Shown one piece after another: positions 6,428 through 27,479 of a DNA stretch of 55,813 bases. Location of the stretch: NCBI GenBank assembly GCA_913051825.1, contig CAJXCR010000004.1, forward strand, positions 1-55,813. The letters run 5' to 3'. The notes below the pieces were generated by a model. That model searched no databases. It saw nothing but the letters and a program-made list of their open reading frames with translations, and was not told the origin of the DNA. The DNA comes from an uncultured Halieaceae bacterium (GTDB taxonomy: Bacteria; Pseudomonadota; Gammaproteobacteria; Pseudomonadales; Halieaceae). Positions within the stretch are counted from its first letter, which is position 1, and every line of letters starts with the position of its first letter. Both the position numbers and the translations under genes were made by a program.

Positions 6428-6511
6428 AGAGACGCTATTGACGTAATTGTGTTACTAAAAATTTATCAGCAGGGCCTTTGAAATTATTTGTTTTTGGAAA
6501 GAGAGAATATT

Positions 6512-7747: not shown

Positions 7748-7757
7748 GGAGATCGAC

Positions 7758-8879
7758 GTGAGTAATAACACATATGGATTTGATCAAGATGCAGCCTTAT
7801 TGAAGGATTCTGCTAGAAAGTTTTTTTCTGAAAAATTGCCAGTAGATAAGCTTCATGAATTGGTCGCAAATGATCCTACACTTGGCAGAGCTCCGCGGAG
7901 TAATTGGTCAGAAGAACTTTGGCAGGAAATGATAGATTTAGGTTGGTCTATGGTTGCTGTTCCAGAGTCTGCTGGTGGATTGGGCATGCCGGCAGTGGCG
8001 GTAGCGGGGCTCATGGAGGAGTGTGGTCGAGCGGCAATTCCTTCTCCGATGCTCTCTACATTAGCAACTACCTACGTGCTAGCTGCCGCAGAAGCCATAG
8101 AGCCTCTAGCAGATATTTGTTCCGGTGAGGCTGCTACTCTTGCAATCTCTGGATCGAGAGATGCCTGGGATTTGGCTTCCACAGAAGTGACTTACAATAA
8201 TGGTAAATTGTCAGGGACTTCATACTACGTTCAAGATGTGGATAAAGTTCAAAAAATCTTAGTAAGTGCGCATAGTGATTCAGAGATATTATTGTTTTGG
8301 GTGGACAAAAAATCGAATGGTGTGAATATAGATCTTGATACGATCGTTGATTTGACAAGAGATCAAGGGCGTGTGTCTTTTGAAGCCGTAGAGGCAAAGC
8401 CCATTTCATTTAAGGGATTATCGGCTTTAGTTGAGGCTATGCCGAAGATATGGATGCTTGTCTCGGCTGATATCGCTGGTGCTGCAGAGTGGCAGTTGCA
8501 AACAACGGTTGAGTATGTCAATGCCCGTAAGCAGTTCGACAAAGCGCTGGGATTTTTCCAAGCAATAAAGCATCCTTTAGTGGATGTGATGATCAAAGTA
8601 GACGAAACTCGATCATTGCTTTATTCCATGGCAAATTCCATTAGCGCTTCTCCTGAAAAAGCAACACAACTTGCTCATATGCTTAAAGCTTCTGCCAGCG
8701 ACCTAGCTGGATTCGCATCGGGGCGTTCTGTTCAGAGTCACGGTGGGATAGGCTTTACCTGGGAGTGTTATGTCCATATTTATTTCAAGAGGCAGAAGCA
8801 CAGTCAGATGTTATTTGGTGATGCAAGTTGGCATCGAGCCCGGCTAGCGGATATTTTGATTGGGCCCGTTGCAGCATAG
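7758..8879 (+). CDS. Acyl-CoA dehydrogenase, second subunit of pair A
   Basis: A 373-residue ACAD of the shorter, divergent subunit type. It keeps the GGLGMP, RKQFDKALGFFQAIKHPLVD and SHGGIGFTWE segments but lacks the SEPGAGSD-type FAD segment in its middle domain, as in beta subunits of heterotetrameric ACADs (ChsE-like enzymes of steroid side-chain degradation). I chose GTG 7758, which has AAGGAG (7746-7751) ahead of it; the longer reading begins inside the previous gene. Translational coupling with the first subunit is likely. The pairing is inferred, the family assignment is firm. Confidence 0.85.
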   Translation: MSNNTYGFDQDAALLKDSARKFFSEKLPVDKLHELVANDPTLGRAPRSNWSEELWQEMIDLGWSMVAVPESAGGLGMPAVAVAGLMEECGRAAIPSPMLSTLATTYVLAAAEAIEPLADICSGEAATLAISGSRDAWDLASTEVTYNNGKLSGTSYYVQDVDKVQKILVSAHSDSEILLFWVDKKSNGVNIDLDTIVDLTRDQGRVSFEAVEAKPISFKGLSALVEAMPKIWMLVSADIAGAAEWQLQTTVEYVNARKQFDKALGFFQAIKHPLVDVMIKVDETRSLLYSMANSISASPEKATQLAHMLKASASDLAGFASGRSVQSHGGIGFTWECYVHIYFKRQKHSQMLFGDASWHRARLADILIGPVAA

Positions 8880-8941: not shown

Positions 8942-9637
8942 CTAATTTTCAAATTTCAATGAGAGGTCCTGTAGATTGAAATGAGTTGGACGAATGAATA
9001 GTCCTTCAGCTTTAGCGGTGGTGTTGTTGTTAGCAAAGATCTGACCGCTCACTCGTGTTTTTCGATCATCTATTCTAGAGACTTCTGCTTCGAGCTGTAG
9101 TTTAGTATTCAAAGGAGTGGGTTTAAGATACCTTATTTCAAGTTTACCAGTCATGCCTGGATTACCTCCAGCTACTTGAGCCATGCCCAGGAATTGATCA
9201 AGAATTGCGGCAACATAGCCCCCATGTATGTGGCCAGGTGGACCTTCATAAGCAAATCCGCACTCTGTGGTGCCAAATGCTTTAGTGCCTTCTACCCAGA
9301 TGTTAATACCTGGAGATAGTGGATTAGAAAATCCTCCAATTGCATTATGTTCATGATTCATTTCACCATGACCACCGTGGTTTCCGTCGGCGACGAACTC
9401 TAGCAAGCCAAATTTCCGTTCAGAAGTTTCGAGTACCGAATTTATCTTTTCTAGCGTTTTTGCCATTTCTTCAAGCTCTTCGTTGCTTGGGATGCAGGTA
9501 ACCAGTGTTTCAGTGATTGCATGGACAGCGGCCGCCATCCGCCTGCGTAGCTTCCAATGATCAGAAATTGGTTCGGTAATTTCCGAGCTAGCAAATGGAT
9601 TAGCGAAACTTCCTAAGATTTTAGTTTTGTCATTCAT
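8942..9637 (-). CDS. PaaI-type hotdog thioesterase
   Basis: A 231-residue protein. The C-terminal about 130 residues form a hotdog domain with the PaaI/4HBT signature H-G-G-Y-V-A-A-I-L-D-Q; the family would hydrolyse an acyl-CoA thioester. The first 100 residues are a helical, less typical extension containing a His-rich stretch (GNHGGHGEMNHEHN), which is the odd part. It is the last gene of a minus-strand operon after an epoxide hydrolase (14-base gap). The substrate is unknown; the neighbours suggest release or salvage of a CoA intermediate. Confidence 0.8.
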   Translation of the reverse strand: MNDKTKILGSFANPFASSEITEPISDHWKLRRRMAAAVHAITETLVTCIPSNEELEEMAKTLEKINSVLETSERKFGLLEFVADGNHGGHGEMNHEHNAIGGFSNPLSPGINIWVEGTKAFGTTECGFAYEGPPGHIHGGYVAAILDQFLGMAQVAGGNPGMTGKLEIRYLKPTPLNTKLQLEAEVSRIDDRKTRVSGQIFANNNTTAKAEGLFIRPTHFNLQDLSLKFEN

Positions 9638-9651
9638 AGAGGTAAATTCAT

Positions 9652-10809
9652 TTAGCTTAGTCGAATAGAGCGAAAACAGTTTCGCAATTCTTCTACGAAA
9701 GTGTCAGGCCTTTCAAATGCGGCGAAATGTCCGCCACGATCTAATTCATTCCAATAAATTAGATTGCTAAATCGTTTTTCCGCCCAGCGTCTACTGCATT
9801 GAAAAATTTCTTTCGGAAACTGAGAGCATCCAGTAGGGGTATTGATAGGATCGAAATTTGGATTGTTGAAACTTTCCCAGTATAACCTCGCAGAACTAGC
9901 TGAGGAGTTGGTAAGCCAGAAAATCATTACGTTATCCAGTAGTTCGTCTTTCGTAAGGACGCTCTCTAATTTTTTTTCTCCTTCTTGTACACAATCTGTC
10001 CATGAATAGAATTTTTCAATTATCCAAGACATTTGGCCAACTGGCGAATCAGAAAGGCCATATGCAACTGTCTGAGGCCTGGTGGACTGTTGTTTAGAGT
10101 AGCCCGAATCCCACTCATTATAATAGTTCATTGCAGCCAGGGCGGACTGCTCCTTTTCAGATAACTCATTCATAGTCTCCGGGTCAGGCATCACAATTGG
10201 CATATTGAGATGAATCGCCTTGCAATCTCCGACTTCTGTTATAGCCATACTTTGGGAGATTATGGCGCCCCAGTCCCCCCCTTGGGCTACATATTCTTTG
10301 TAGCCAATTCTTTTCATGAGTTGACCCCACATCCGTCCGATCTTTTCGACGGAGGTTCCTGGATTATTAGGTTTATCCGAAAATCCGTAACCAGGCAGAG
10401 AGGGGACGACCACACTAAAAGCATCTTTTGCATCGCCACCATGTTTTTCAGGTTCTGTAAGTGCGTCAATAACTTTACAGAATTCTATAACAGAGCCAGG
10501 CCAGCCATGGGAAATTATTATTGGTAATGCATCTGGGTGCGGACTAGGTTTATGGATAAAATGAATGTCTAAATCGTCGATAGAAGTCATATAATTTGGC
10601 CATTGATTTAGCATTTTTTCACAACGTCGCCAGTCATATTCATTTATCCAGTAATTGGTCAATGATTTCGCATAGTCAAGCGGGATACCTTGATCCCAAC
10701 TGGAGACAGTTTCAGCATCTGGCCAACGTGTATTCTTTAAACGTTCTGATAGTTGATTTAGTTCGTTCTCAGGTATATTTATCTGAAAGGGTCTAATGCT
10801 ATTTTTCAA
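9652..10809 (-). CDS. Epoxide hydrolase (EHN plus alpha/beta hydrolase)
   Basis: A 385-residue epoxide hydrolase of the microsomal/EHN type. The N-terminal EHN domain begins IRPFQINIPENELNQL and has the conserved LKNTRWPD. The alpha/beta hydrolase core follows: oxyanion motif HGWPGSV, nucleophile Asp in G-G-D-W-G-A, and C-terminal GGHFAAFERP with the catalytic His. It should open an epoxide to a vicinal diol in the cytoplasm. It lies between an SDR and a thioesterase with gaps of only 14-15 bases, so the three are probably one operon. The substrate is not evident. Confidence 0.88.
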   Translation of the reverse strand: MKNSIRPFQINIPENELNQLSERLKNTRWPDAETVSSWDQGIPLDYAKSLTNYWINEYDWRRCEKMLNQWPNYMTSIDDLDIHFIHKPSPHPDALPIIISHGWPGSVIEFCKVIDALTEPEKHGGDAKDAFSVVVPSLPGYGFSDKPNNPGTSVEKIGRMWGQLMKRIGYKEYVAQGGDWGAIISQSMAITEVGDCKAIHLNMPIVMPDPETMNELSEKEQSALAAMNYYNEWDSGYSKQQSTRPQTVAYGLSDSPVGQMSWIIEKFYSWTDCVQEGEKKLESVLTKDELLDNVMIFWLTNSSASSARLYWESFNNPNFDPINTPTGCSQFPKEIFQCSRRWAEKRFSNLIYWNELDRGGHFAAFERPDTFVEELRNCFRSIRLS

Positions 10810-10824
10810 TTTATTTCCCCAGTT

Positions 10825-11823
10825 TTAAAATTTATCAAGAAAGTCTAACAACCGAAGTCTCTCTTTTTTTGTCTCGACTGTCGATTTAATCAGGTATGTC
10901 GTTCTTGGTTCCCTATCGAGAAATAGTTTTCCGCTAATTCGTCCCGCTTCGGATGCAGCGGCTAACCAGACAATAGTGTCTGCTCCCTGTTCTGGAGTTC
11001 GTAGAAATTGCTTAGTGATTTTTCGAAAAGTTGGCAGAGAGTTCTGAACGCCTGGTGTATCCGCCCAACCTGGATGCATAGCATTTACGACAAATCCATC
11101 TTCTTTCCAGGCATCTGCCCAAGATTCAGTCACGATCATTAGGCCACGCTTTGCTCGAGCATATGCAACGCTTCCAGAATATTTCTCCTTCGGCATAATT
11201 AATTCGTTCACGCATAGTTTTTGTGTATACATTCCACCAGAGACTACATTTATGATTCGAGGTTGTTCTGACTGGTTTAGAAGTGGTTTGAGACCCAAGG
11301 TAAGTCGATATGGGCTCAATAAAAGAAGCGCGAAACTTTGTTCTAGATTTTCCTTAGTCTCAAGCCTTGGGTTTATTAGTGCCCCAGCATTATTAATTAA
11401 GACATCAATTTTTTTGTTTTTTCTTACCAGACGATCCGTAAGAGATTTTACATCACCAATTAAGCTTAGGTCCGCGACTTCCGCAGTTACGTTTTTATTG
11501 CCACTAACTGTTTTCAACTTGTCCACTAAAGGTGTGATGTCTTCAGCTTTTCGAACTACAAGAGTTAGTTCCGCGCCAAGTTTTGCCAGCTCCTTAGCTG
11601 CACAGAGTCCTAATCCTGTTCTAGCGCCAGTGATTAAGATGTGTTTATTGCTTTGATTGCCAGTGATCTTCTTCCAGCGTTTTTTATTTCTCCAGTATCC
11701 AAACCGAGTAAAATCAATTATTCCTGGAAGTATCCATCGGTCAGCTATCTTTGAATAGCGAGACATTTCTGGCGCGCAAAAAGCTTCTTTGGTAGTGACT
11801 AATTGGTCGGAAGAATCACTCAT
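10825..11823 (-). CDS. Short-chain dehydrogenase/reductase
   Basis: An SDR of 332 residues from the chosen start. It shows the NAD(P)-binding T-G-A-R-T-G-L-G motif, N-N-A-G, the catalytic Ser in VVSGGMY, and the Y-A-R-A-K (YxxxK) active site, followed by MHPGWADTPG. The layout resembles DHRS/retinol dehydrogenase-like SDRs with an N-terminal extension of about 55 residues. Start ATG 11823 (GGATCG just before) gives an 8-base overlap with the upstream small gene; an in-frame ATG 39 bases upstream would overlap more. It likely oxidises or reduces an alcohol/ketone alongside the epoxide hydrolase. Confidence 0.84.
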   Translation of the reverse strand: MSDSSDQLVTTKEAFCAPEMSRYSKIADRWILPGIIDFTRFGYWRNKKRWKKITGNQSNKHILITGARTGLGLCAAKELAKLGAELTLVVRKAEDITPLVDKLKTVSGNKNVTAEVADLSLIGDVKSLTDRLVRKNKKIDVLINNAGALINPRLETKENLEQSFALLLLSPYRLTLGLKPLLNQSEQPRIINVVSGGMYTQKLCVNELIMPKEKYSGSVAYARAKRGLMIVTESWADAWKEDGFVVNAMHPGWADTPGVQNSLPTFRKITKQFLRTPEQGADTIVWLAAASEAGRISGKLFLDREPRTTYLIKSTVETKKERLRLLDFLDKF

Positions 11824-12166
11824 CGATCCAGATCTTTCGAAGTGGTTCTCCAAAGTCATCATATATTATTTTTTGCTTGGATCTCGTATTACAAAACTTT
11901 TTTTCGGATTTATTCTTTCTCATTAAAAGACGCCGCTCTTCCATCGCTTTAATTACTTCAGGAATAGGCGTTCTTTTAGTTGCTGGATCTACAAATACGC
12001 GGTTTTTCAGCCATACGGGCTCTTCACCAATATCGTGAGCGCTACTTCCTCTTGGTATGATTTCGACCTCTCCACCTCCAGCAATAAAGTTCAACGTTTG
12101 CTTCTTAAGGTGCCGCCGAATCTCTGATTTTGATTTTGGTCTATTAATGACTAAGAAATCCGTCAT
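11816..12166 (-). CDS. Small basic protein of unknown function
   Basis: A 116-residue, strongly basic protein. Residues 10-45 read as a Lys/Arg-rich helix followed by F-I-A-G-G-G-E-V-E-I-I-P-R-G-S-S, a pattern I have seen in several small uncharacterised gammaproteobacterial proteins, but I cannot name the family. There is no signal peptide or membrane segment. It is the first gene of the SDR/epoxide hydrolase/thioesterase operon and overlaps the SDR start, so it is probably co-translated. A nucleic-acid-binding role would fit the charge but is only a guess. Confidence 0.6.
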   Translation of the reverse strand: MTDFLVINRPKSKSEIRRHLKKQTLNFIAGGGEVEIIPRGSSAHDIGEEPVWLKNRVFVDPATKRTPIPEVIKAMEERRLLMRKNKSEKKFCNTRSKQKIIYDDFGEPLRKIWIDE

Positions 12167-13182: not shown

Positions 13183-14373
13183 ATGACTGATGCGTATATT
13201 GTAGGAGCCCTCCGCAGTGCTGGCGGAAGAAAAAATGGAAAACTTTCAAAAGTTCATCCCATAGACTTAGGTGCTAAGGTCATTGATGCTTTGGTAGAAA
13301 ATGTTGATTGTTCGATCGAAAATATCGACGATTTAATATTTGGTTGCGTTTCTCAGGTCGGAGCTCAGTCAAGTAATATTGGACGCAATGTTTGCTTAGC
13401 TTCCGTTTTAGGAGAATCTGTTCCTGGAACTACCGTTGATCGGCAATGTGGATCTGGTCAGCAAGCAATTCATTTTGCGGCTCAGGCGGTGATGTCAGGC
13501 ACACAAGATGTTGTTATAGCTGGTGGCGTGGAGAGCATGAGTCAGGTGCCGATAGGGGCGAGTATTATTGATGGTTATAAAGCAGAACATGGATTGCCTT
13601 ATGGTGAACGTATAAGTGAACGTTATCCAGGGGTCCAGTTTAATCAGTTTGCGGGAGCAGAGATGCTGGTAGAAAAGTATCAGTTGTCTAAAGAAGAACT
13701 CAATGAATTTGCACTGGAGAGTCATCTCCGTGCGAAGCGGGCGGTAGAAGAAGGTCGTTTTGATGATCAGATTGTTCCTATAGAAGTTGAGCTCGAGGAT
13801 GGCACATTAGAGCTTCATCGTCAGGACGAAGGTATTCGTATGGATGCCACGATAGGTGCGATATCAGGGCTCCAACCAATGACCGAGGGTGGTGCTTTAA
13901 GTGCCGCAAATGCATCCCAAATTTGTGATGGAGCGTCAGCAGTTATGCTTGCAAATGCAGATGCGTGTCGCAAATTTGGATTGAAACCGATGGCGAAAGT
14001 GATCGCTATGAGTGTTATTGGATCGGATCCTGTTATTATGCTTGAGGGTCCGATTCCAGCAACCAAGAAGGTCCTAGAAAAAGCAAATATGGATCTAAAT
14101 GATATCGATCTATTTGAGGTCAATGAAGCATTTGGATCGGTACCGTTAGCTTGGGCAAAAGCGTTAGGCGCAGATAAACAAAAGTTAAACGTTAATGGTG
14201 GCGCACAGGCATTAGGTCACCCGCTAGGTGGTACTGGTGCAAAACTTATGACTACGTTGATTCATGAGCTGCACCGTAGTGGGAAACGCTATGGTCTTCT
14301 GGCTATATGTGAGGGTGGTGGAACCGCAAATGCGACGATAGTTGAGCGACTAGACAGTGTGATGGAGGATTAG
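13183..14373 (+). CDS. Acetyl-CoA acyltransferase (thiolase)
   Basis: A 396-residue thiolase with the full active site: nucleophile Cys89 in D-R-Q-C-G-S-G, His in N-E-A-F, His in G-H-P-L-G-G-T-G, and the second Cys in C-E-G-G-G. It cleaves a 3-oxoacyl-CoA with CoA (FadA-like) or condenses two acyl-CoAs. The length is standard. A dienelactone-hydrolase-like gene follows after only 2 bases, with its ribosome binding site GGAGG inside the thiolase 3' end. In this region it is the best candidate for the terminal beta-oxidation cleavage step. Confidence 0.92.
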   Translation: MTDAYIVGALRSAGGRKNGKLSKVHPIDLGAKVIDALVENVDCSIENIDDLIFGCVSQVGAQSSNIGRNVCLASVLGESVPGTTVDRQCGSGQQAIHFAAQAVMSGTQDVVIAGGVESMSQVPIGASIIDGYKAEHGLPYGERISERYPGVQFNQFAGAEMLVEKYQLSKEELNEFALESHLRAKRAVEEGRFDDQIVPIEVELEDGTLELHRQDEGIRMDATIGAISGLQPMTEGGALSAANASQICDGASAVMLANADACRKFGLKPMAKVIAMSVIGSDPVIMLEGPIPATKKVLEKANMDLNDIDLFEVNEAFGSVPLAWAKALGADKQKLNVNGGAQALGHPLGGTGAKLMTTLIHELHRSGKRYGLLAICEGGGTANATIVERLDSVMED

Positions 14374-14375
14374 AA

Positions 14376-15086
14376 GTGGCTATTCAAACTAAACTACTAA
14401 ACTATGATTGTGACGGAGTCAGATTAGAAGGATATTTAGCGTGGGATGATTCTATAGAAACCGCTCCCGCTATAGCGGTTTCTCATGCTTGGGGTGGTCG
14501 AGGTGAATTTGAGGAAAGTAAAGCATTGGTCCTTGCTGAGATGGGGTTCGTAGGGTTTGCCATAGATATGTATGGTGAAGGAAAGCAAGGCAGCAATCCT
14601 GAGGAAAACGAAGCTCTTATGACACCGCTATTGGCAGATAGGGATCTTCTTGGCAGGCGAATAGAGAGGGCGATCGAGACTTTACGTGACCAATCGCAGG
14701 TTGATTCGTCAAAAATTGCGGCAATGGGATATTGTTTTGGAGGCTTGTGTGTGCTGGATCTTGCGCGTCGTGGTAGTGATGTGTCTGGAGTAGTTTCTTT
14801 TCATGGATTATTCACCCCGCCAAACGATGAGGTGAAGCCAATTAGCACCAAGGTTTTGTGTTTGCACGGCTATCAAGATCCTATGGCGTTGCCCGAATCG
14901 GTGGTAGCTTTGGGAGAAGAGATGACAAAAGCTGGAGCGGATTGGCAGCTATATGCTTATGGGAATGCACTTCACTCCTTTACTAATCCAGCGGCAAATG
15001 ATCGGGATTTCGGAACAGTCTATGATGCTGATTCTGATCGTCGCTCTTGGTTAGCGCTAACAAATTTCCTTGAGGAGATTTTTTAA
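14376..15086 (+). CDS. Dienelactone hydrolase family protein
   Basis: A 236-residue alpha/beta hydrolase of the DLH family. The nucleophile is a cysteine in G-Y-C-F-G-G, with Asp in G-Y-Q-D-P and His in A-L-H-S-F completing the triad. It starts at GTG, 8 bases after GGAGG, and is coupled to the thiolase gene. DLH enzymes open lactones such as dienelactone in aromatic degradation, but many relatives act on other esters. In this context it might open a lactone or ester of the degraded compound; the assignment stays at family level. Confidence 0.86.
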   Translation: MAIQTKLLNYDCDGVRLEGYLAWDDSIETAPAIAVSHAWGGRGEFEESKALVLAEMGFVGFAIDMYGEGKQGSNPEENEALMTPLLADRDLLGRRIERAIETLRDQSQVDSSKIAAMGYCFGGLCVLDLARRGSDVSGVVSFHGLFTPPNDEVKPISTKVLCLHGYQDPMALPESVVALGEEMTKAGADWQLYAYGNALHSFTNPAANDRDFGTVYDADSDRRSWLALTNFLEEIF

Positions 15087-15099
15087 AGGCTTGCCACTT

Positions 15100-16320
15100 C
15101 TATTCTGAAAACTTCAGAATGATTTGTTTGCCAAGTGCCATTTGGTGTACTTCGTCTGGCCCGTCGGCCTGACGGCACCATCTCGCATAGTTGAATGCCT
15201 CGGCCATAAAGTAATCTGAAGTTAAACCTCCAGCGCCGTGCATTTGCATGCATCGGTCTAGAATTGTTTGGGCCATGATGGGGATTCTTATCTTGCTTGC
15301 CGCAATCATGTCGCGAGCTTCCTGAGCTCCAACTTCGTCCATTTTATGACAAGACTTTAGTACTAAAAGTCGCATCATTTCAATTTCAGCGAAGCTAGTA
15401 GCAATCGCTTCTCTGACTGATTGGTGCTGGCTAAGCTCTCGACCAAAGGTTCGTCGTTCACTAACTCTCGTACAGGTGATTTCCAATGCTCGCTGAGTGG
15501 CGCCGATCAGCCGCATGCAATGATGCATACGACCTGGTCCCAGTCTTCCTTGTGCGATTTCAAAACCACGGCCTTCACCTAACAAGATGTTGGCAACAGG
15601 GACTCGAACATTATCAAATCTCAGTTCTGCATGGCCGAATGGAGCATCGTCATAGCCTAACGTGGTTAGTGGACGAATGATTTGTAGGCCAGGTGTCTCT
15701 TTCGGGACCAGGATCTGACTTTGTTGGAGATGTCGATTTGAATTTTCTGGATCGCTCTTGCCCATTACTATAAATATTTTTGTACGTTCATACATCGCTC
15801 CGGTGATAAACCATTTTCTTCCATTAAGCAGCCAGCTGTCACCGTCGCGTTGAATGTTAAGTTCCACATTGGTGGCGTCACTTGAAGCCACTTGTGGTTC
15901 AGTCATGGCGTAGGAAGATCTAATTTCCCCTGCTAGTAAAGGTTTTAGCCATTTTTCTTGATGTTCTGGACTTCCATATTTCATGAATACTTCCATGTTT
16001 CCAGTATCAGGCGCATTGCAGTTGAAAATTTCGGGTGACCAGAGTACTCGACCCATTATTTCGGCAAGTGGTGCGTATTCAAAGTTAGTCAGCCCATCAT
16101 GATTGCAGAACTCCGAAAGAGCTGGTGGAACAAAAAGATTCCAAAGCTCCTGTTCCTGTGCTTTTGCTTTTAGTTCATCAACTAGAGGGAGAGTGGAGAA
16201 ACGATTTTGTGCCTTGGCAAGTTGCTGGGAATAAAATTCTTCGTTTGGATAGATATAGTCATCCATGAATTTTTTCAATTGATTTTGATACGAGAGTGAT
16301 TTTTCGCTAAAGGTATACAT
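15100..16320 (-). CDS. ACAD10/11-like acyl-CoA dehydrogenase
   Basis: A 406-residue ACAD. It has the SYAMTEPQVASSDATN segment, WFITGA, RRTFGRELSQHQSVR, and a C-terminal A-D-G-P-D-E-V-H motif. That motif is typical of the ACAD10/ACAD11 subgroup, whose mammalian members carry an APH kinase domain and process 4-hydroxyacyl-CoAs through a phosphorylated intermediate. Here the kinase is a separate gene close by (18034-19053). The gene is convergent with the DLH gene (13-base gap) and divergent from the thiolase-like operon, sharing a 173-base intergenic region. Confidence 0.86.
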   Translation of the reverse strand: MYTFSEKSLSYQNQLKKFMDDYIYPNEEFYSQQLAKAQNRFSTLPLVDELKAKAQEQELWNLFVPPALSEFCNHDGLTNFEYAPLAEIMGRVLWSPEIFNCNAPDTGNMEVFMKYGSPEHQEKWLKPLLAGEIRSSYAMTEPQVASSDATNVELNIQRDGDSWLLNGRKWFITGAMYERTKIFIVMGKSDPENSNRHLQQSQILVPKETPGLQIIRPLTTLGYDDAPFGHAELRFDNVRVPVANILLGEGRGFEIAQGRLGPGRMHHCMRLIGATQRALEITCTRVSERRTFGRELSQHQSVREAIATSFAEIEMMRLLVLKSCHKMDEVGAQEARDMIAASKIRIPIMAQTILDRCMQMHGAGGLTSDYFMAEAFNYARWCRQADGPDEVHQMALGKQIILKFSE

Positions 16321-16493: not shown

Positions 16494-18017
16494 ATGTCAG
16501 AAATTCATGAGAGCATTCCTGTTCTAGTCGGTGCGGCCCAGGAGACATTTAGGGATCTTGATCCATCTCGAAACCTTGTCGACGCTTTTGAATCGGTGCT
16601 TGAGCAGGCGCTGGATACTGCTTGTAAGAAGGAGTTAGTAAATCTGGTGGATTCGATTTATGTGGTGCCTTCTCTAGCCGCTTATATGCCAGAGCTCAAT
16701 GAGTTAATGCCTAGAAATCCAGGCATACAACTGGGCAGCCGCTTCGGGATCAAGAATTTCAGTACATTTTCTGCTGATATGGGAGGAAGTTTACCTCAGG
16801 AATTTATTAATCGTGCCGCCGATCGGCTGGCGGCAGGAGAATCTGAGGCCGCTATAATTATCGGCGGGGAACTCTTGGCTACTTTAAGGAAGGCGCTTCG
16901 AGAAGGTACTGCTCTCACTAATTGGTCTCCTGGTGATGAAGAGTTTCCTACTGCGCTTGATGTCAGGCGTGATCCTAGTTACGACACGGAAAGAACTCAT
17001 GGTGTATATGCTCCCATTAATGCGTATCCGGTAGTCGAGACTGCTTTGCGTCATAGAAATGGTTTTAATCTTGAGCAACACCAGCAGGTAATGGGCGGTA
17101 TTGTCAGTCGATTTAGCGAGGTGGCTGCGAAAAATCCATTTGCATGGCGGCAATCTTTTTTGACTCCCTCTGAAGTGCTGGATACGGAAGGAGGCAATCG
17201 GATGATCACCTATCCTTACACGCGAGCTATGAATTCAATTTTATCAGTGGATATGGCAGCAGCGGTGTTAATGACTACGGTCGGTCATGCTAGAAAAATG
17301 GGAATCTCCGATCAGGAGATGGTTTTTTTGCGAGGTGGAGCTGAAGTCAACGATACCTGGTATTTTAGCGAGAGGAATAATTTCTACAGTTCACCAGCGA
17401 TTCGTCTTGCCGCAGAGCACAGTTTTTCAATGAGCGAGATTAGCATTGATGAAATTGAGTATTTCGATATCTACAGTTGTTTTCCATCGGCCGTTCAGGT
17501 TGCTGCAGATGAACTTGGTCTCGATGTCAATGATCCGCGTGGACTTACCCTCACTGGTGGTCTGACTCAGTTTGGAGGTCCTGGAAACAACTACTCCTTG
17601 CATCCTATTGCGACTTTTTTTGATAAGGTTAGTAATGGTACTTCTGGACATGCCCTTATTACGGCGAATGGCGGATTTTTAACGAAGCATGCCGTGGGAA
17701 TCTATTCGACTGAACCTCCAACCAAACGCTGGTCTAGAGCTCATATCCCGGACTTACAGGCTCTTATTGATTCTCAGCCTCATCCGGAATTGGATTTTGA
17801 GCCAAGTGGCCCAGGTATTGTGGAAGGAATGGCTCTAAGGTTTAGAGATGGACATCCTAGTAGAGGTATTATATTGGGTCGACTAGATTCAGGAAGACGT
17901 TTTTTAGCACTAACATCGGAGGAGCAAACTATTTTGGATAGCCTGATAGGCGAGGATGTTGTTGGACTCAAGGGCGAAGTGACCCCGGGTTTGAAAGCTA
18001 ATTTGTTTAAATTTTGA
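16494..18017 (+). CDS. Thiolase-like protein without the catalytic cysteines
   Basis: A 507-residue thiolase-fold protein with an extra C-terminal domain of about 80 residues (from near 425), as in the TLP1 type. Where thiolases have the nucleophile Cys this protein has D-M-G-G-S-L-P-Q (residues 95-101); where they have H-D-C-F it has Y-S-C-F-P; where they have C-x-G-G it has A-N-G-G-F. So neither thiolase Cys is present, and standard Claisen chemistry is unlikely. These changes seem to be family features, not decay. It heads a five-gene plus-strand operon (16494-21780). Confidence 0.82.
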   Translation: MSEIHESIPVLVGAAQETFRDLDPSRNLVDAFESVLEQALDTACKKELVNLVDSIYVVPSLAAYMPELNELMPRNPGIQLGSRFGIKNFSTFSADMGGSLPQEFINRAADRLAAGESEAAIIIGGELLATLRKALREGTALTNWSPGDEEFPTALDVRRDPSYDTERTHGVYAPINAYPVVETALRHRNGFNLEQHQQVMGGIVSRFSEVAAKNPFAWRQSFLTPSEVLDTEGGNRMITYPYTRAMNSILSVDMAAAVLMTTVGHARKMGISDQEMVFLRGGAEVNDTWYFSERNNFYSSPAIRLAAEHSFSMSEISIDEIEYFDIYSCFPSAVQVAADELGLDVNDPRGLTLTGGLTQFGGPGNNYSLHPIATFFDKVSNGTSGHALITANGGFLTKHAVGIYSTEPPTKRWSRAHIPDLQALIDSQPHPELDFEPSGPGIVEGMALRFRDGHPSRGIILGRLDSGRRFLALTSEEQTILDSLIGEDVVGLKGEVTPGLKANLFKF

Positions 18018-18033
18018 TAATTAAATAATTTCG

Positions 18034-19053
18034 ATGAGTAGGAGTACACGGTTAATACACGACGACTTGAGCCAAGCGCTTGTAGAGTTACTATCGACTA
18101 TCTATGAGGGCGAAATAGAATTAGTTGATTTTTCAAGATTGTCGGGAGGTGCAAATATGGAGATATGGTCCATGGATGCAGTCTTAGATAACACCTCCCA
18201 TCCCATCATTTTGCGCAGAATGCCTGGTGGAAAGAACGACTTAAACCAGGTTGGGAATATTGATCTAGCTACTGAAGCAGAATTAATTACCATCGCAGCT
18301 GGTCACGGTGTAGCGGTGCCTCAAATAGTTCATGTCTTATGTCCCTCGGATGCGCTAGGGATTGGATTTCTAATGAGCCGAGAGCCAGGGTTAGCTTTAC
18401 CTAAAAGAATTTTGAAAGATCCTGATCTAAACAAGACTCGCGAGTTGCTAGCGTTTGAGTGCGGTAAAGTCCTTGCAAAAATTCATAGCATTCCATTAGA
18501 AAAAATTCCTGGATCGGTTAAAAATATGAGCGAAATTGATATTAACGAAACGATGCAGGCTAAACTAGATAATTATAACAATGTGTCACCAGTCCATCAG
18601 CTGACTCTGAATTGGTTACGAGACAATTTGCCTGCTGCTCGTGGTAAAACATTAGTGCATGGTGATTTTCGCAATGGAAACATGTTAGTTGATACGAATG
18701 GTATTGTTGCCATTCTGGATTGGGAGCTGGCACATATTGGTAATCCAGTGGAGGATCTTGGTTATCTCTGCGGAAATGTGTGGCGGTTCGGAAACCATGA
18801 TCAGCCTGTGGGTGGGTTCGGTCAATATGATGAGTTACTCGATGGATACAGAACAGAAGCTGGGTGGGCACCCACCGTGGAAGAGGTACAACATTGGGAA
18901 ATTTATTGTGCGATGAATTGGGCTATGGCTTGTCTTACTATGCTCGATTTATATCGGACCAGAGCAGATACTAGTATCGAGAGAGCCGCTGTGGGGCGTC
19001 GTCTTTCAGAATCCGAGATAGATCTATTGCTGCTGCTAGAGGGAAAAATGTAA
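18034..19053 (+). CDS. APH-family kinase, LvaA-like
   Basis: A 339-residue aminoglycoside-phosphotransferase-fold kinase. The catalytic loop is H-G-D-F-R-N-G-N (about 209-216) and the metal-binding motif is D-W-E in ILDWELAHIGNP. Close family members include the N-terminal domain of ACAD10/11 and LvaA of Pseudomonas levulinate degradation, which phosphorylates the 4-hydroxyl of 4-hydroxyacyl-CoA. It is followed by a DUF6285-like protein and an ACAD, the same order as LvaA-LvaB-LvaC. The kinase family is clear; the substrate is inferred from context. Confidence 0.85.
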   Translation: MSRSTRLIHDDLSQALVELLSTIYEGEIELVDFSRLSGGANMEIWSMDAVLDNTSHPIILRRMPGGKNDLNQVGNIDLATEAELITIAAGHGVAVPQIVHVLCPSDALGIGFLMSREPGLALPKRILKDPDLNKTRELLAFECGKVLAKIHSIPLEKIPGSVKNMSEIDINETMQAKLDNYNNVSPVHQLTLNWLRDNLPAARGKTLVHGDFRNGNMLVDTNGIVAILDWELAHIGNPVEDLGYLCGNVWRFGNHDQPVGGFGQYDELLDGYRTEAGWAPTVEEVQHWEIYCAMNWAMACLTMLDLYRTRADTSIERAAVGRRLSESEIDLLLLLEGKM

Positions 19054-19073
19054 TAGTATTTTTAATCATCGAT

Positions 19074-19080
19074 GGAGGTG
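19074..19080 (+). promoter_or_regulatory. Strong ribosome binding site that fixes the next start
   Basis: GGAGGTG lies 3 bases before ATG 19084. An in-frame ATG at 19072 overlaps this site, so 19084 is the better start for the LvaB-like gene. Confidence 0.75.
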
Positions 19081-19083
19081 CAA

Positions 19084-19470
19084 ATGAATGGAACGAGCGC
19101 AGCGGAGCTGTTAGAAGCAACTCGCAATTTTCTTTTGGAATCGGTGCTCCCGAATCAAGAAGGTTTCTTGGCGTATAGCACTCGAGTAGCTGCTAACAAC
19201 CTAGCAATAGTTTCTCGAGAAATAGAATTGAGAGGATATATTGACAAACTCGATGAAGAAATTATTCGGACATTGTCGCTTCAAAATAAAGGAGAGCCGC
19301 TATCGACCACCTTGGCGCGAGCATTGAGAGATGGAATTATTCAGGTTGATGATGATTTACTGGAATATCTACGAAAACGCACAATGCGCTCTTTGGAAAT
19401 AGATAATCCTAGATATTCTGGTTTGGTCTTGGCTCAAGATCGTTGGGAGAAGCGAGGTTTGCAAGAATGA
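19084..19470 (+). CDS. DUF6285-like small protein, LvaB-like
   Basis: A 128-residue, mostly helical, soluble protein (AAELLEATRNFL..., RVAANNLAIVSREIELR). It matches the small proteins, which I believe are called DUF6285, that sit between an APH-type kinase and an ACAD. LvaB of Pseudomonas putida has this position and size and is needed with LvaA for 4-hydroxyacyl-CoA phosphorylation. The start is fixed by GGAGGTG. The stop overlaps the next ATG in an ATGA arrangement. Sequence identity to LvaB itself could not be tested. Confidence 0.72.
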   Translation: MNGTSAAELLEATRNFLLESVLPNQEGFLAYSTRVAANNLAIVSREIELRGYIDKLDEEIIRTLSLQNKGEPLSTTLARALRDGIIQVDDDLLEYLRKRTMRSLEIDNPRYSGLVLAQDRWEKRGLQE

Positions 19471-20738
19471 GTCAGGAAACTTCACCCTCAAGCCTTAAGA
19501 AACTTCTGGATAATCTTGATGAGTTTATCGAAAAGACACTCAAACCAATCGAGGAGAGTGAAGGGAATGAGCGCTTTTTTAACCACCGCCGCGAATATGA
19601 ACGTACAAATTGGGAAGATCATGGCTTACCTCAAAAGGAATGGGAAGATTTATTAGCTAAGGCCCGAACTTTGGCACGCGATGCGGGTTTTCTCGATTTT
19701 GCATTGCCAAAAGAATTTGGTGGAGGGGATGCAACTAATTTAGAGATGGCGGTAGTTAGAGAACATTTGGCTGCTAAAGGTATTGGCTTGCATTGTGATC
19801 TTCAGAACGAGCACTCCATAGTTGGAAACTTTCCGACTACGCTGCTTTTTCGAGATTTTGGTAATGATGTTCAGCGAGATATCTTCATTAAGGGCAGTAT
19901 ACAAGAGAAGGTTGCAGTTGGATTTGGTTTGACAGAACCAGAGCATGGTTCGGATGCAACATGGATGAAAACCGAGGCCCATCGATCTGATCGTAACCGC
20001 GAATCAGGTTGGTTGATCAATGGTGAAAAAATGTGGACCACGGGTGCGCATCGAGCTACCCATCTTCTTATTTTTGCACGCACTAGTGGTAAGTACGGTG
20101 ATCCTGTTGGAATAAGCTGTTTTGTTATGCCGATTGATACTGCTGGATTCCATATTGATGAATGGCTATGGACCTTCAATATGCCTACAGATCACCCAAG
20201 GGTATCTTTAAAAGATGTCTGGTTGCCGGATAGTGCAATACTAGGAGAAGTCGATAGAGGCCTTGATGTAGCTCAGCACTTTGTTCACGAAAACAGAATA
20301 CGTCAGGCGGCCTCTAGTCTGGGAACGGCACGTTTTTGCATCCAAGCTTCGGTGAACTATGCGAACGAACGGATAACTTTTGGAAAACCCCTTTCTATGA
20401 ATCAGTCTATTCAATTCAAAGTGGCTGAGTTAAGTATCGACTATGAGATGATAAAGGCTCTGACCATGGCCGTAGCGGGGGAGATGGATCGATTGTCAAA
20501 GATAGAAGTGGCAAAGCTGTTATCTGCGAAAGTAGCTATGTGTAACTATCGGGCTAATACACTAGCATGCGATGCGGCTGACTACGCTATGCAAGTGCAC
20601 GGTGGGATCGGTTATTCTCGATACAAGCAATTCGAGCATCACTATAGACATCACCGTCGATATCGAATTACTGAAGGTTCGGATGAGATTCAGTTGAGAA
20701 AGATTGCCGGGAAACTATTCGGTTTTATTAAGGCGTAA
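19467..20738 (+). CDS. Acyl-CoA dehydrogenase, LvaC-like position
   Basis: A 423-residue ACAD with GFGLTEPEHGSDATW, WLINGEKMWTTGAH, RITFGKPLSMNQSIQFK, VHGGIGYSRYKQFEHHYRHHRRYRI (read in parts) and a C-terminal T-E-G-S-D-E-I-Q that keeps the Glu of the standard catalytic position. It starts at ATG 19467 in an ATGA overlap with the DUF6285-like gene. In the lva pathway the third gene product converts the 4-phosphoryloxy-acyl-CoA to an enoyl-CoA; the same role is suggested here, but simple dehydrogenation is possible. Confidence 0.87.
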   Translation: MSQETSPSSLKKLLDNLDEFIEKTLKPIEESEGNERFFNHRREYERTNWEDHGLPQKEWEDLLAKARTLARDAGFLDFALPKEFGGGDATNLEMAVVREHLAAKGIGLHCDLQNEHSIVGNFPTTLLFRDFGNDVQRDIFIKGSIQEKVAVGFGLTEPEHGSDATWMKTEAHRSDRNRESGWLINGEKMWTTGAHRATHLLIFARTSGKYGDPVGISCFVMPIDTAGFHIDEWLWTFNMPTDHPRVSLKDVWLPDSAILGEVDRGLDVAQHFVHENRIRQAASSLGTARFCIQASVNYANERITFGKPLSMNQSIQFKVAELSIDYEMIKALTMAVAGEMDRLSKIEVAKLLSAKVAMCNYRANTLACDAADYAMQVHGGIGYSRYKQFEHHYRHHRRYRITEGSDEIQLRKIAGKLFGFIKA

Positions 20739-21812: not shown

Positions 21813-22991
21813 CTAAGCATCTAGTACTGATTTAGCCGCATCGATTGCTGCTCCAGGCACAAGGTCGTAACCCTGTTTTGCCATCACCGCCTCCAATGAG
21901 GCTAAGCAGGTGATTACATTTCGTCTTGTACTAGAGTGGCCCATTAATCCGATGCGCCAGGTTTTTCCAGCAAGCTCACCTAGGCCAGCACCAATTTCCA
22001 GATTGAAGTCATTTAGCAGTTCATTCCGCGTTTTTCCGTCGTCAATACCATTGGGTATATAAACGGAATTCAGTTGTGGTAGCCTAAAATCTTGATCTAC
22101 TGCCATCTCCAATCCCATAGCTTCTAGCCCTGCTACTAGAGCTTCATGGTTTGTCCGATGTCTAGAGAATGATGTTTCCAAGCCCTCTTCTTTTAATATC
22201 AGTAGTGATTCGTGGAGTCCATAAAGGGCGTTGACTGGTGCCGTGTGATGGTAGGCACGTTTCTTTCCTTCTCCCCAATAGCTCATTATTAGTTGCATGT
22301 CTAAAAACCAGCTGTGACTTTTACTCGTGCGGTTATTTATTCGTTCAGCGGCTCTTTTACTAAACGTTATGGGAGATAAACCTGGTACGCAGGAAAGGCA
22401 TTTCTGGCTCCCCGAGTAAACCACATCGGCTTTCCAATTGTCGGTATCGAGTTCGATTCCTCCGAGTGTGGTAACCGCATCTACTATGGAAAATGCGCCA
22501 TGCTCAAAGGCGATTTGGCAAAGTGTCTTTGCATCGCTTCGTGCTCCAGTAGAAGTTTCCGAATGAACAAATGCTAGTACTGATGCCTCAGGATGCGAGT
22601 CAAATGCCTCTGACACTTTTTCTGGGTCAACTGGCTTCCCCCATGAGTCTTGAATCATGACAGGGTTCGCGCCACATCGCTCCACATTCTCCTTCATTCG
22701 TCCGCCAAATACCCCGTTTTGACACACTATGACCGTATCACCTGGAGAGACCAAATTTGCAAACGCTGCTTCCATGCCAGCCGATCCCGGTGCAGAGATT
22801 GGAAGTGTCAGTTCGTTCTTTGTTTTTAGAGCATACTGAAGCAATTGCTTGATTTCGTCCATGAGTTCAACAAATAAAGGATCAAGGTGACCGATAGTGG
22901 GTCTGCCCATAGCAGCAAGAACACGTGGTGAAACGTCAGAAGGTCCTGGACCCATAAGGGTTCGAATAGGTGGATAAAAGCTCTTAGTCAT
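21813..22991 (-). CDS. Class V aminotransferase, alanine-glyoxylate type
   Basis: A 392-residue PLP enzyme of the AGXT family. It starts with the family pattern LMGPGPSDVSPRVLAAM and has the PLP-contacting Asp171 (S-I-V-D-A-V-T) and the Schiff-base Lys197 in GSQKCLSCVPG. Such enzymes move an amino group from alanine or serine to glyoxylate or a similar oxo-acid. It is followed upstream on the same strand by a luciferase-like oxidoreductase gene about 80 bases away. Which amino acid it uses cannot be read from sequence. Confidence 0.88.
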   Translation of the reverse strand: MTKSFYPPIRTLMGPGPSDVSPRVLAAMGRPTIGHLDPLFVELMDEIKQLLQYALKTKNELTLPISAPGSAGMEAAFANLVSPGDTVIVCQNGVFGGRMKENVERCGANPVMIQDSWGKPVDPEKVSEAFDSHPEASVLAFVHSETSTGARSDAKTLCQIAFEHGAFSIVDAVTTLGGIELDTDNWKADVVYSGSQKCLSCVPGLSPITFSKRAAERINNRTSKSHSWFLDMQLIMSYWGEGKKRAYHHTAPVNALYGLHESLLILKEEGLETSFSRHRTNHEALVAGLEAMGLEMAVDQDFRLPQLNSVYIPNGIDDGKTRNELLNDFNLEIGAGLGELAGKTWRIGLMGHSSTRRNVITCLASLEAVMAKQGYDLVPGAAIDAAKSVLDA

Positions 22992-23958: not shown

Positions 23959-24129
23959 AATTATTGCCGGCAAGTTGAAGTTAGATCTTTATAGCAATTA
24001 ATGCTGGGCAACAAAAGTATTTACGAGAGAATGCATTTGCATGATCATATAGGGAAGAAATTTTGCTAGTCAATAAATTGGCTTTGACAGCAACGATAAA
24101 TGAAAGGGAAAAATAATAGGGAGTATAAT

Positions 24130-25137
24130 TTGAAGATCGATGCACCCTTTTATGCCAATCTCCCCGACGCAGCAAAGGAAGCGAAAAGAATCCAAGATCT
24201 TGGCTTTGACGGCTTATATACTTTGGAAGGAAGCTGGGATCCTTTTTTGCCTTTGGCTTTGGCCACAGAGCATGCTCCGCTTTTAGATATTGCGACGGCA
24301 GTAGCGATTGCGTTTCCAAGGAACCCAATGCATACCGCATATCAGGCGTGGGACTTGCAAAAATTTTCACGTGGGAAATTCACGCTTGGATTAGGTTCAC
24401 AAATAAAAACCCATATCGAAAAGAGATTTGGAACAGATTTTCATCCGCCAGCTTCACGTATGCGTGACTATATTCAGGCATTGAAGTCGATCTTCAAATG
24501 CTGGCAAGAAGGTTCCAGACTTGACTACCAAGGTGAATTCTATAGACATACTCTGATGACCCCAATGTTTAATCCTGGGGAAAATGAGTTTGGTGTTCCT
24601 TCGATAACGATGGGTGCCTTGGGCCCAAAAATGACCGAGGTGGCAGGAGAAGTCGCCGATGGTTTGATAGTGCATCCGTTTAACAACGAATCTTTTGTGA
24701 GAGAAAATACACTCCCTGCCTTGGATTTGGGTATCGAAAAATCTGATCGTGATCGATCTGATATTTCTTTGAATGTCCACGCTATTGTGATCACTGGTGA
24801 ATCGGAGGAAGAAATGAATGATGCCAGAGACAGTGTTAAAAAATTATTAGGGTTTTACGGCTCCACTCCGGCTTATTTGGCGCCTATGGATTCCATTGGG
24901 TATGGCGCGCTGCAGCCTGAGCTCAATCAACTTTCGAAAAAAGGTAAGTGGAATGAGCTTGGAGAAGCGATCGATGAAGGTTTTCTCGAAGCATTTTGTG
25001 TCGAGGGCGAGCCTAGTGATTTGGCCTCAAAATTAATTAATAGGCATGGTGGCTACGCTGACCGTATTGGTTTGTATGCACCTTACAATGTATCGGATAA
25101 TATTTGGCGACAGTTGTTGAGTGATCTAAAAGATTAA
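24130..25137 (+). CDS. LLM-class oxidoreductase, TIGR03617-like
   Basis: An LLM enzyme of 335 residues of the TIGR03617-like group, usually labelled F420-dependent. It has AKEAKRIQDLGFDGLYTLEGSWDP read in parts, the KFSRGKFTLGLGSQ flavin region and FGVPSITMGALGPKMTE. I prefer TTG 24130 as start: AGGGAG at 24118-24123 is 6 bases ahead and the protein then begins MKIDAPF, like relatives. An ATG at 24100 would add 10 residues. The ACAD pair B follows after 15 bases, so they are probably one operon. Confidence 0.85.
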   Translation: MKIDAPFYANLPDAAKEAKRIQDLGFDGLYTLEGSWDPFLPLALATEHAPLLDIATAVAIAFPRNPMHTAYQAWDLQKFSRGKFTLGLGSQIKTHIEKRFGTDFHPPASRMRDYIQALKSIFKCWQEGSRLDYQGEFYRHTLMTPMFNPGENEFGVPSITMGALGPKMTEVAGEVADGLIVHPFNNESFVRENTLPALDLGIEKSDRDRSDISLNVHAIVITGESEEEMNDARDSVKKLLGFYGSTPAYLAPMDSIGYGALQPELNQLSKKGKWNELGEAIDEGFLEAFCVEGEPSDLASKLINRHGGYADRIGLYAPYNVSDNIWRQLLSDLKD

Positions 25138-25152: not shown

Positions 25153-26337
25153 GTGAAAATTCAATTCAATACAGAGCAAGTAAAATTGAAGAAAGAACTC
25201 AGAGAATATTTTTCTGAGATGATGACTCCAGCGCTTAAAGAGGAATGTGAACGTGATCTTGGTGAAGGAGGAGGGCCTCTTTGGCGAACTGCATTAAAGC
25301 AGATGGGTCGTGATGGTTGGATAGGAATGGGATGGGATGAAAAGTGGGGAGGAAAAGGATTGACTCCACTTGAGCAATTTATCTTCGTCGAAGAAGTGAT
25401 GCGAGCGGGTTACCCATTTCCATTCTTAACGACAGAGAGTGTGGGTCCTATTCTAGCGGAGCATGGTTCAGATTTTCTAAAGAAAACTTTTCTGCCAAAA
25501 ATACTTTCCGGTGAGTTAATCGTAGCGATTGGATATTCTGAACCCAGCGCTGGCACAGATTTAGCGAGTTTGAAAACGACCGCGATTCGAGAGGGTGATG
25601 ACTGGATAATAAACGGGCAGAAGATGTGGACCTCGCTTGCACACTTTGCAGATTACACTTGGTTGGCAGCTCGAACGAACCCTGACGCAGATAAGAAGCA
25701 CAAGGGAATAAGTTTATTTCTCGTGCCGAATTCCGCTCCCGGTTGGAGTTGCGCTCCGGTACATACCTTAGGTGGTATTAGAACCAATGTAACTTATTAC
25801 GACAATATTCGGATTAGTGATGCTTACCGTGTCGGTGGGCTAAATGAAGGTTGGAAATTAATCACCAGTCAGTTGAATCGTGAAAGACTCAGCCTAATTA
25901 ACTTTGGCCCTTGCTCTGATTTGTTTAATCAGATTGTTAAGTGGGCCATAACTACGGTATTGCCTTCCGGAGAAAGCGTTATCGAACAATCTTGGGTGCA
26001 GGCTAACCTGGCAAAGGTCCGAGCTTATATCGAATGTATGAAGCTCATTGTCTATAAACAGTCATGGGCAATGACAGAAGGAAACCTTGATATGGCAGAT
26101 GCTTCGGCAGCCAAAGTATATGGTTCTGAAGCGTTTATCGAAATTTACAGGTTGCTCGGTGAGGTGGTTGGTTACGCAGGACTTATTAGAAATAGCGATG
26201 AAATCTGCCCACAAGCTTCTAAAATCGAGCGACTGTATCGGACCGCATCTATTATTACCTTTGGCGGAGGTGCCAATGAAATTCAAAGAGACATCATCTC
26301 CGCTGCAGGACTGTGGATGCCAAGAGCATCGCGTTAG
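25153..26337 (+). CDS. Acyl-CoA dehydrogenase, first subunit of pair B
   Basis: A 394-residue ACAD with the complete FAD segment IGYSEPSAGTDLAS and the MWTSLAHFADYTW region. The C-terminal segment reads F-G-G-G-A-N-E-I-Q, without the MCAD-type catalytic Glu, the same state as pair A. It begins at GTG 25153 after GAGAG. The next ACAD gene starts 11 bases after its stop. With the partner it resembles heterotetrameric ACADs that act on bulky acyl-CoAs such as steroid side chains. Confidence 0.88.
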   Translation: MKIQFNTEQVKLKKELREYFSEMMTPALKEECERDLGEGGGPLWRTALKQMGRDGWIGMGWDEKWGGKGLTPLEQFIFVEEVMRAGYPFPFLTTESVGPILAEHGSDFLKKTFLPKILSGELIVAIGYSEPSAGTDLASLKTTAIREGDDWIINGQKMWTSLAHFADYTWLAARTNPDADKKHKGISLFLVPNSAPGWSCAPVHTLGGIRTNVTYYDNIRISDAYRVGGLNEGWKLITSQLNRERLSLINFGPCSDLFNQIVKWAITTVLPSGESVIEQSWVQANLAKVRAYIECMKLIVYKQSWAMTEGNLDMADASAAKVYGSEAFIEIYRLLGEVVGYAGLIRNSDEICPQASKIERLYRTASIITFGGGANEIQRDIISAAGLWMPRASR

Positions 26338-26348
26338 AAGGGTTTGCA

Positions 26349-27479
26349 ATGGACTTTGGTTTAAATCAAATTCAGCGAGAAATTCGGGATCTATCTAGAA
26401 GTATTTTTAAGGATAATGTAACTCCTGAGAAATTGGCGAGTTACGATGAATACGCTATGCCAAGATTCGATGAGGACCTTTGGTCGAAGCTCGCAGAAGC
26501 TGGTTTGCTATCGACTTGTATAGATTCTGATTATGGAGGATCTCAGTTCGGTTTTATGGAATTAGCTTTGCTCTTAGAGGAAGTAGGACGATCAATAGCG
26601 CCTGTTCCATTAGCTTCTCATTGCCTTTCAATGATGGGTATTCAGAAGTTTGGCGAAGAGAAAATCCGGAAAAAGATTTTGCCTGAAGCTGCGTCTGGAA
26701 AAATACTACTTACTTCCGCATTTTTAGAACCTATGAATAATAACCCAATGTCCGCGCATAGCACCTCATACGTATTTGATGGAAAAAATTATATTATTTC
26801 AGGTCGAAAACAGGCCGTGCCTTTTGCGAACCAGGCGGATTACATTCTTCTTTCTGCAGCAAATGGAGAGGATCTAGTCGTTTTCATCATTGAGCCGGGG
26901 GCGGCTGGTGTATCTATCAAGCCTTTGCAGGTAACGTCATTTGAGCCGCAGGCAGAGATTTGCCTGAACGAGGTAACAGTAGAATCTAGCCAAGTAGTCG
27001 CCGTGAGAGATGGTTCGACACTAGTAAAATGGATTTTTGATCGAATGCTGAGCTTAATTTGTATGCATCAAGTTGGAGTGACGGATGCGGCGATGAAAAT
27101 GTCTGCAAGCTATACCTCAGAGAGGACCCAGTTTGGAGTGCCTGTAGCGACATTTCAGGCCGTCGGACATCGGATGGCGGATTCATATATTGATATTGAG
27201 TGTCTGCGTTTGACATCGTATCAAGCTGCTTCACTTTTAGACTTAGAGGAAGAGGCTGATATAGAACTTCAAATAGCAAAGATCTGGGCGGCGGATGTGG
27301 GCCACAGATTGAGTTACAGTGCCCAACATGTTCATGGAGGTGCGGGTATTGATAGAGATTATCCATTATGGCGGTATTGTTTATGGTTAAGGCACAATGA
27401 GATGATTGTTGGGGGCAGCTCCTATCACACTCAACAACTAGGTAATCTCATTGCATCAGGTCGCGGTCTTTTTTCTTAG
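26349..27479 (+). CDS. Acyl-CoA dehydrogenase, second subunit of pair B
   Basis: A 376-residue ACAD of the divergent subunit type. It keeps YGGSQFGFMELALLLEEVGR, TSERTQFGVPVATFQAVGHRMAD (read in parts) and VHGGAGIDRDYPLWRY but lacks a SEPGAGSD-like segment, having FLEPMNNNPMS instead. ATG 26349 follows AGAAGGG at 26336-26342; the longer reading starts within the previous gene. It closes the catabolic region and precedes a 434-base gap. Confidence 0.86.
   Translation: MDFGLNQIQREIRDLSRSIFKDNVTPEKLASYDEYAMPRFDEDLWSKLAEAGLLSTCIDSDYGGSQFGFMELALLLEEVGRSIAPVPLASHCLSMMGIQKFGEEKIRKKILPEAASGKILLTSAFLEPMNNNPMSAHSTSYVFDGKNYIISGRKQAVPFANQADYILLSAANGEDLVVFIIEPGAAGVSIKPLQVTSFEPQAEICLNEVTVESSQVVAVRDGSTLVKWIFDRMLSLICMHQVGVTDAAMKMSASYTSERTQFGVPVATFQAVGHRMADSYIDIECLRLTSYQAASLLDLEEEADIELQIAKIWAADVGHRLSYSAQHVHGGAGIDRDYPLWRYCLWLRHNEMIVGGSSYHTQQLGNLIASGRGLFS

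Follow-up and report, generated by a model that had tools for sequence, protein, structure and literature searches.

The window analyzed here (55,813 nucleotides from an uncultured Halieaceae bacterium) contains an APH-fold kinase, a small protein and an acyl-CoA dehydrogenase (ACAD) in direct succession at 18034–20738, and the positions given for these three open reading frames in a preliminary description of the DNA were confirmed from the sequence and by Pfam matches (Table 1). The kinase motifs noted there, HGDFRNGN (residues 209–216) and DWE (229–231), are present, and the start codon of the ACAD (ATG at 19467) lies within the stop of the preceding gene, giving the ATGA overlap (19467–19470) already described. 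The longest reading frame of the small protein begins at 19072; since the ATG at 19084 is closely preceded by GGAGGTG and matches the start used in relatives, its length is probably the 128 residues first proposed, and its AF2 model (pLDDT 85.9) is all-helical, as had also been claimed. The three genes are retained in the same order, at 91–97% identity, in a sister species of the same genus (a Halieaceae MAG; L002 and L059 are one contig), and the kinase–DUF6285–ACAD trio recurs with its order across many families, such that the arrangement is not a product of chance. An operator and promoter search of the 173-bp region between the operon and the divergently transcribed ACAD gene found no palindrome common to the sister species, and a promoter count at chance level.

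Table 1. Features of the kinase–DUF6285–ACAD locus and its conserved neighbors, with positions in the window.
Feature	Position	Strand	Basis
APH-fold kinase, LvaA-family (DUF6285-linked branch), 339 aa	18034–19053	+	Pfam APH 101.8 bits; tree; WRF signature
DUF6285 protein (PF19802), LvaB family, 128 aa	19084–19470	+	Pfam 62.2 bits; lvaB position in lva operons
ACADop, acyl-CoA dehydrogenase of a distinct family	19467–20738	+	Pfam Acyl-CoA_dh domains; residues; genome co-occurrence
TLP1-type thiolase-like protein, operon gene 1	16494–18017	+	Pfam TLP1_add_C; adjoins kinase in family loci
LvaC/ACAD10/11-type ACAD, divergent: GRLGPGRMHHCMR and ADGPDEVH	15100–16320	-	377.6 bits to mouse ACAD11 8v3u; all four signature residues
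Dienelactone-hydrolase-family protein (DLH), conserved upstream neighbor	14376–15086	+	Pfam DLH; gene cluster
Thiolase (acetyl-CoA C-acyltransferase), conserved neighbor	13183–14373	+	TIGR01930 402 bits, PRK06504 590.9 bits; gene order

The match of the small protein to the LvaB family had been named beforehand as one of two points on which the original assignment could fall (the other being the grouping of the kinase), and its score against the DUF6285 HMM is 62.2 bits, compared to a gathering cut-off of 28.1 bits. We identify DUF6285 with LvaB from its occupancy of the lvaB slot in two loci, and not from the sequence of KT2440 LvaB: the complete lva operon on a Stutzerimonas stutzeri plasmid (L006) encodes, in this order, a PrpR-type regulator, kinase, DUF6285, histidine phosphatase, ACAD, SDR, acyl-CoA synthetase, DUF485 protein and symporter, and in a genome from the window's order (L115), kinase, DUF6285, LvaC and SDR genes stand in succession, without the phosphatase. 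LvaB itself is a 12-kDa protein that is co-pulled-down with LvaA and is needed together with it (PMC6692424). The lva cluster of P. citronellolis has been reported to lack lvaB but to contain the phosphatase, with gene numbers that jump from 0390 (kinase) to 0393 (phosphatase) (PMC6692424). We note that DUF6285 lies between the kinase and the histidine phosphatase in the Stutzerimonas operon (L006:10928–14269), and that a DUF6285 gene may have been overlooked between 0390 and 0393 in P. citronellolis. Comparison of the DUF6285 sequence with solved structures gave no match, a Foldseek search with its model gave a best match no better than E 0.84, and we found no mention of the domain by name in the literature searched.

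The kinase groups with LvaA, as had been proposed, and the tree and the profile comparison both speak against a choline or homoserine kinase or one that acts on antibiotics, so that this second point also holds. A tree of 89 kinases, built by a quick method, divides with support 100 the DUF6285-locus kinases, to which LvaA and the window's kinase belong, from the ACAD10/11 group, represented by mouse ACAD11, 3dxp and bacterial kinases near ACADs of the HCMR type defined below. A WRF motif (residues 250–252 of the window's kinase) is found in 78 of the 79 DUF6285-locus kinases versus none of the 10 of ACAD10/11 type, and the catalytic residues H209, D211, N216 and D229 are kept in the window's kinase. 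Furthermore, the kinase and DUF6285 form a single polypeptide in many genomes, and the predicted model of the fused protein reaches a pLDDT of 90.7 and a pTM of 0.89. Judged by sequence, the kinase and the small protein are relatives of LvaA and LvaB. The kinase–DUF6285 pairs of Variovorax (L007:10982–13487) and one other genome (L104) occupy a kinase branch of their own (support 100); in Variovorax, the next gene encodes a canonical short-chain-like ACAD, which may represent a third type of partner.

The structural comparison also bears on an alternative that we consider improbable, namely, that the kinase targets a different hydroxyl, for instance a tertiary hydroxyl, or a remote one, of a branched or terpenoid acyl-CoA, in the manner of the 25-hydroxysteroid kinase (25-HSK) of Sterolibacterium, with the operon ACAD acting in that pathway. 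Foldseek of the fused kinase ranks 25-HSK (9ft5, 9fsg) directly after 3dxp, and 25-HSK likewise readies an alcohol for phosphate elimination, such that more than one pathway relies on an APH-fold kinase to activate a hydroxyl in this way. The enzyme acts on a tertiary alcohol, and the gene for the 25-phosphosteroid lyase had not been identified (PMC8449060), which leaves room for the alternative. The same paper names no candidate lyase gene near that of the kinase, which tells against it. Moreover, 25-HSK is more distant in sequence from the window's kinase, with a profile score of 81 bits compared to 111 for ACAD11 and 120 for 3dxp; no DUF6285 or ACAD partner is reported for it, whereas DUF6285 links the window's kinase specifically to LvaA.

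The operon ACAD had been taken as LvaC-like, and this assignment is contradicted by its residues. In mouse ACAD11, R626, H634 and R637, together with the Asp base D753, act on 4-phosphoacyl-CoA; a non-conservative swap of R626, H634 or R637 ablates the activity of the ACAD domain, and phosphate removal by ACAD10/11 is abolished when any of the three is replaced (PMC12440821). We refer to ACADs with Arg626, His634-Cys-Met-Arg637 and Asp753 (ACAD11 numbering) as HCMR-type, and all of these residues are kept in the alignment of 46 such ACADs, including LvaC and the divergent gene of the window. At the same positions, F, Q, A, A, S and E are found in the operon ACAD, which lacks all four residues of 4-phosphoacyl-CoA chemistry, as do 49 of 49 ACADs of its type (ACADop); in these, all six residues (F626, Q634, S637 and E753 among them) and an Arg at position 633 are invariant. 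In its own numbering, F272, R277, R279, Q280 and S283 correspond to ACAD11 positions 626, 631, 633, 634 and 637. A His at position 597 is common to both types (49/49 ACADop, 46/46 HCMR). The description of the divergent gene as a "second" ADGPDEVH-type ACAD stands as far as that gene is concerned, but the operon ACAD reads TEGSDEIQ, with Glu403 as the base. Since both the signature residues and the high score to ACAD11 belong to the divergent gene and not to the operon ACAD, the two ACADs swap roles from the earlier assignment, and we place the operon ACAD, from these residues, in a family separate from LvaC/ACAD10/11. Its best NCBIfam scores include 3-sulfinopropanoyl-CoA desulfinase (143 bits) and acryloyl-CoA reductase (159 bits), a likeness that falls far below the cut-offs of these families (600 and 640). 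The desulfinase is proof that ACAD homologues can carry out eliminations. No assay of an ACADop was found in the literature searched.

The nearest ACAD at the DUF6285 loci surveyed was of ACADop type at 45 loci, HCMR-type at 16 and of another type at 3, with none within about 4 kb at the remaining 17. In the window's family, 80 genomes have both DUF6285 and ACADop, 20 DUF6285 only, 4 ACADop only and 36 neither (Fisher 9e-15), and among 397 Pseudomonadota genomes, ACADop occurs in 31, of which 30 are DUF6285-positive (Fisher 8e-35); both values are inflated by shared ancestry, although the pattern nonetheless covers about ten families. The kinases of the 11 DUF6285 genomes without ACADop among these 397 are all of the LvaA clade. 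Outside the window's family, exactly one ACADop was found in each of the 20 DUF6285 genomes examined, linked or unlinked, and none of the four family genomes with kinase–DUF6285 beside an HCMR ACAD has an ACADop. ACADop is a distinct family tied to one kinase branch, and the coupling is imperfect: about 10 genomes of one genus (g375) have kinase–DUF6285 without ACADop, including one (G586) whose kinase nevertheless sits inside the ACADop kinase clade, and ACADop stands without a detected DUF6285 in one genome (G410). On the quick kinase tree described above, the kinases whose partner is ACADop cluster in a single clade (support 83), placed among or beside the HCMR-ACAD-partnered kinases of the window's family, which fits a single change of partner.

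Named carriers of ACADop include Sulfitobacter pontiacus, Nocardia farcinica (in the order DUF6285–kinase–ACADop) and haloarchaea. The Sulfitobacter plasmid operon runs ligase–kinase–DUF6285–ACADop–two crotonases–thiolase–TRAP transporter, and the 15-kb stretch contains no HCMR ACAD. On haloarchaeal plasmids (L239:8272–8751, L240:6391–6870), a 159-residue protein without a Pfam family stands beside ACADop and an APH kinase; a profile comparison found no similarity to DUF6285 (probability 0.7%), and this protein is possibly an unrelated substitute for LvaB.

Kinase-dependent hydroxyl removal prior to beta-oxidation is a recent finding, made for ACAD10/11 of mammals and for the lva operon of bacteria. 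The best reading of the locus, in our view, is a putative second kind of kinase–LvaB–ACAD module for a hydroxyacyl-CoA, in which the LvaC step would have been replaced or would depend on an enzyme encoded at another place in the genome. Inferring activities, step order and substrate from the observed families, residues, gene linkage and co-occurrence, we propose that the kinase and DUF6285 would associate in a complex like that of LvaA and LvaB, and would phosphorylate an acyl-CoA hydroxyl with ATP, as expected of their family; ACADop may then act on the phosphorylated acyl-CoA, or on what is directly formed from it, and hand an enoyl-CoA to ordinary beta-oxidation, with the divergent LvaC-type ACAD potentially available as a further lyase. 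We regard this proposal as a whole as evenly poised. It draws on DUF6285 in the lvaB slot, the LvaA-side kinase, the natural fusions, the coupling to ACADop, the clade of ACADop-partnered kinases and the Sulfitobacter operon.

Lacking Arg626, His634, Arg637 and Asp753, ACADop may not touch the phosphate at all. It is quite conceivable, even if we lean against it, that the kinase and DUF6285 perform the LvaA/LvaB step, that the divergent HCMR ACAD or a paralogue performs the LvaC step, and that ACADop, as an ordinary ETF-linked dehydrogenase, serves a different step in the beta-oxidation of the same substrate. Such a division is suggested by the divergent ACAD, which has all LvaC/ACAD11 signature residues and shares the 173-bp intergenic region with the operon, by the canonical Glu base of ACADop, and by the occurrence of HCMR-type ACADs close to the module in another lineage as well (L100, L101) and almost universally in the window's family (134/140, E ≤ 1e-60). 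However, orthologues of the divergent gene are not near the module in other genera, and a generic dehydrogenase is not expected to follow one kinase branch so tightly. In addition, ACAD10/11-type kinases are present in these genomes, including the window's own, and adjoin HCMR ACADs in several, which argues that the HCMR ACADs have another partner.

Within our preferred reading, a more specific version, which we offer tentatively and with some doubt, is that ACADop is a second, independently recruited phosphoacyl-CoA enzyme, using Glu as its base and an Arg-Gln pair instead of the Asp base and HCMR, that would have replaced LvaC in one LvaA/LvaB branch and become distributed across Proteobacteria, Actinobacteria and haloarchaea. 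This replacement is backed by the coupling, the switch of partner, the Sulfitobacter operon and the separate ACAD10/11-type kinases in the same genomes, while the loss of the residues known to be essential, the presence of HCMR-type ACADs in 26/27 genomes by motif and their position near the module in the window and in L100/L101 count against it.

Compared with known systems, the module resembles the Pseudomonas lva operon in having an LvaA-family kinase followed by DUF6285 (LvaB) and an ACAD in one operon, but differs in the F/Q/S/E residues of its ACAD at positions 626/634/637/753 and in having TLP1, thiolase and DLH genes beside it, and neither LvaD nor LvaE. With the ACAD10 and ACAD11 fusions, it has in common a kinase and an ACAD for hydroxyacyl-CoA, the divergent ACAD being of this type; in contrast, the window's kinase lies outside their clade, has WRF and is partnered by DUF6285, and the HCMR motif and Asp base of ACAD11 are missing from the operon ACAD. 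What would be new relative to the lva operon and ACAD10/11 types is a predicted variant of the LvaA/LvaB/ACAD system with ACADop as the ACAD partner. The kinase–LvaB pair has at least two ACAD partners, and DUF6285, an uncharacterized domain, gains a defined setting; if ACADop also processes phosphoacyl-CoAs, the residue rules from ACAD11 would not be the sole solution.

In terms of substrate, the kinase and DUF6285, taken by themselves, would suggest a gamma-hydroxyacyl-CoA. Neither LvaD nor LvaE was found between 12.3 and 27.5 kb, in line with the preliminary description, making levulinate unlikely. The SDR of the window (10825–11862, - strand) is more than 6 kb from the kinase; beside it, on the same strand, lie an epoxide hydrolase (EHN, 9652–10809) and a 4HBT thioesterase (8942–9637). 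The thiolase-like protein, whose gene comes first in the operon both in the window and in several relatives, had been called Cys-less: it contains two Cys, and the claim holds insofar as none is found at the usual nucleophile or CxG positions. Its Cys329 (YSCF) is invariant in 11 relatives. The gene order in related genera is acyltransferase, DLH, TLP1, kinase, DUF6285, ACADop, thiolase and FadB-like protein, and in the window, the divergent HCMR ACAD separates the module from the thiolase and DLH genes upstream of it. A DLH-type cluster is found near 9 of the 45 ACADop-type loci, and a lactone-hydrolase step from the DLH gene is speculation on our part.

Several further genes of the window deserve mention. 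An F420-dependent oxidoreductase of the TIGR03617 family (24100–25137) is encoded no more than about 4 kb from the module, and a member of the same family is found about 2 kb from the module in Halomarina (L240:9874–10866). Two tandem pairs of divergent ACADs (6488–8879 and 25153–27479) have the arrangement of the heteromeric ACADs in steroid degraders. Finally, a class V aminotransferase (21813–22991) is closest to BhcA (aspartate–glyoxylate) and pyridoxamine–pyruvate transaminase, with scores below the family cut-offs.
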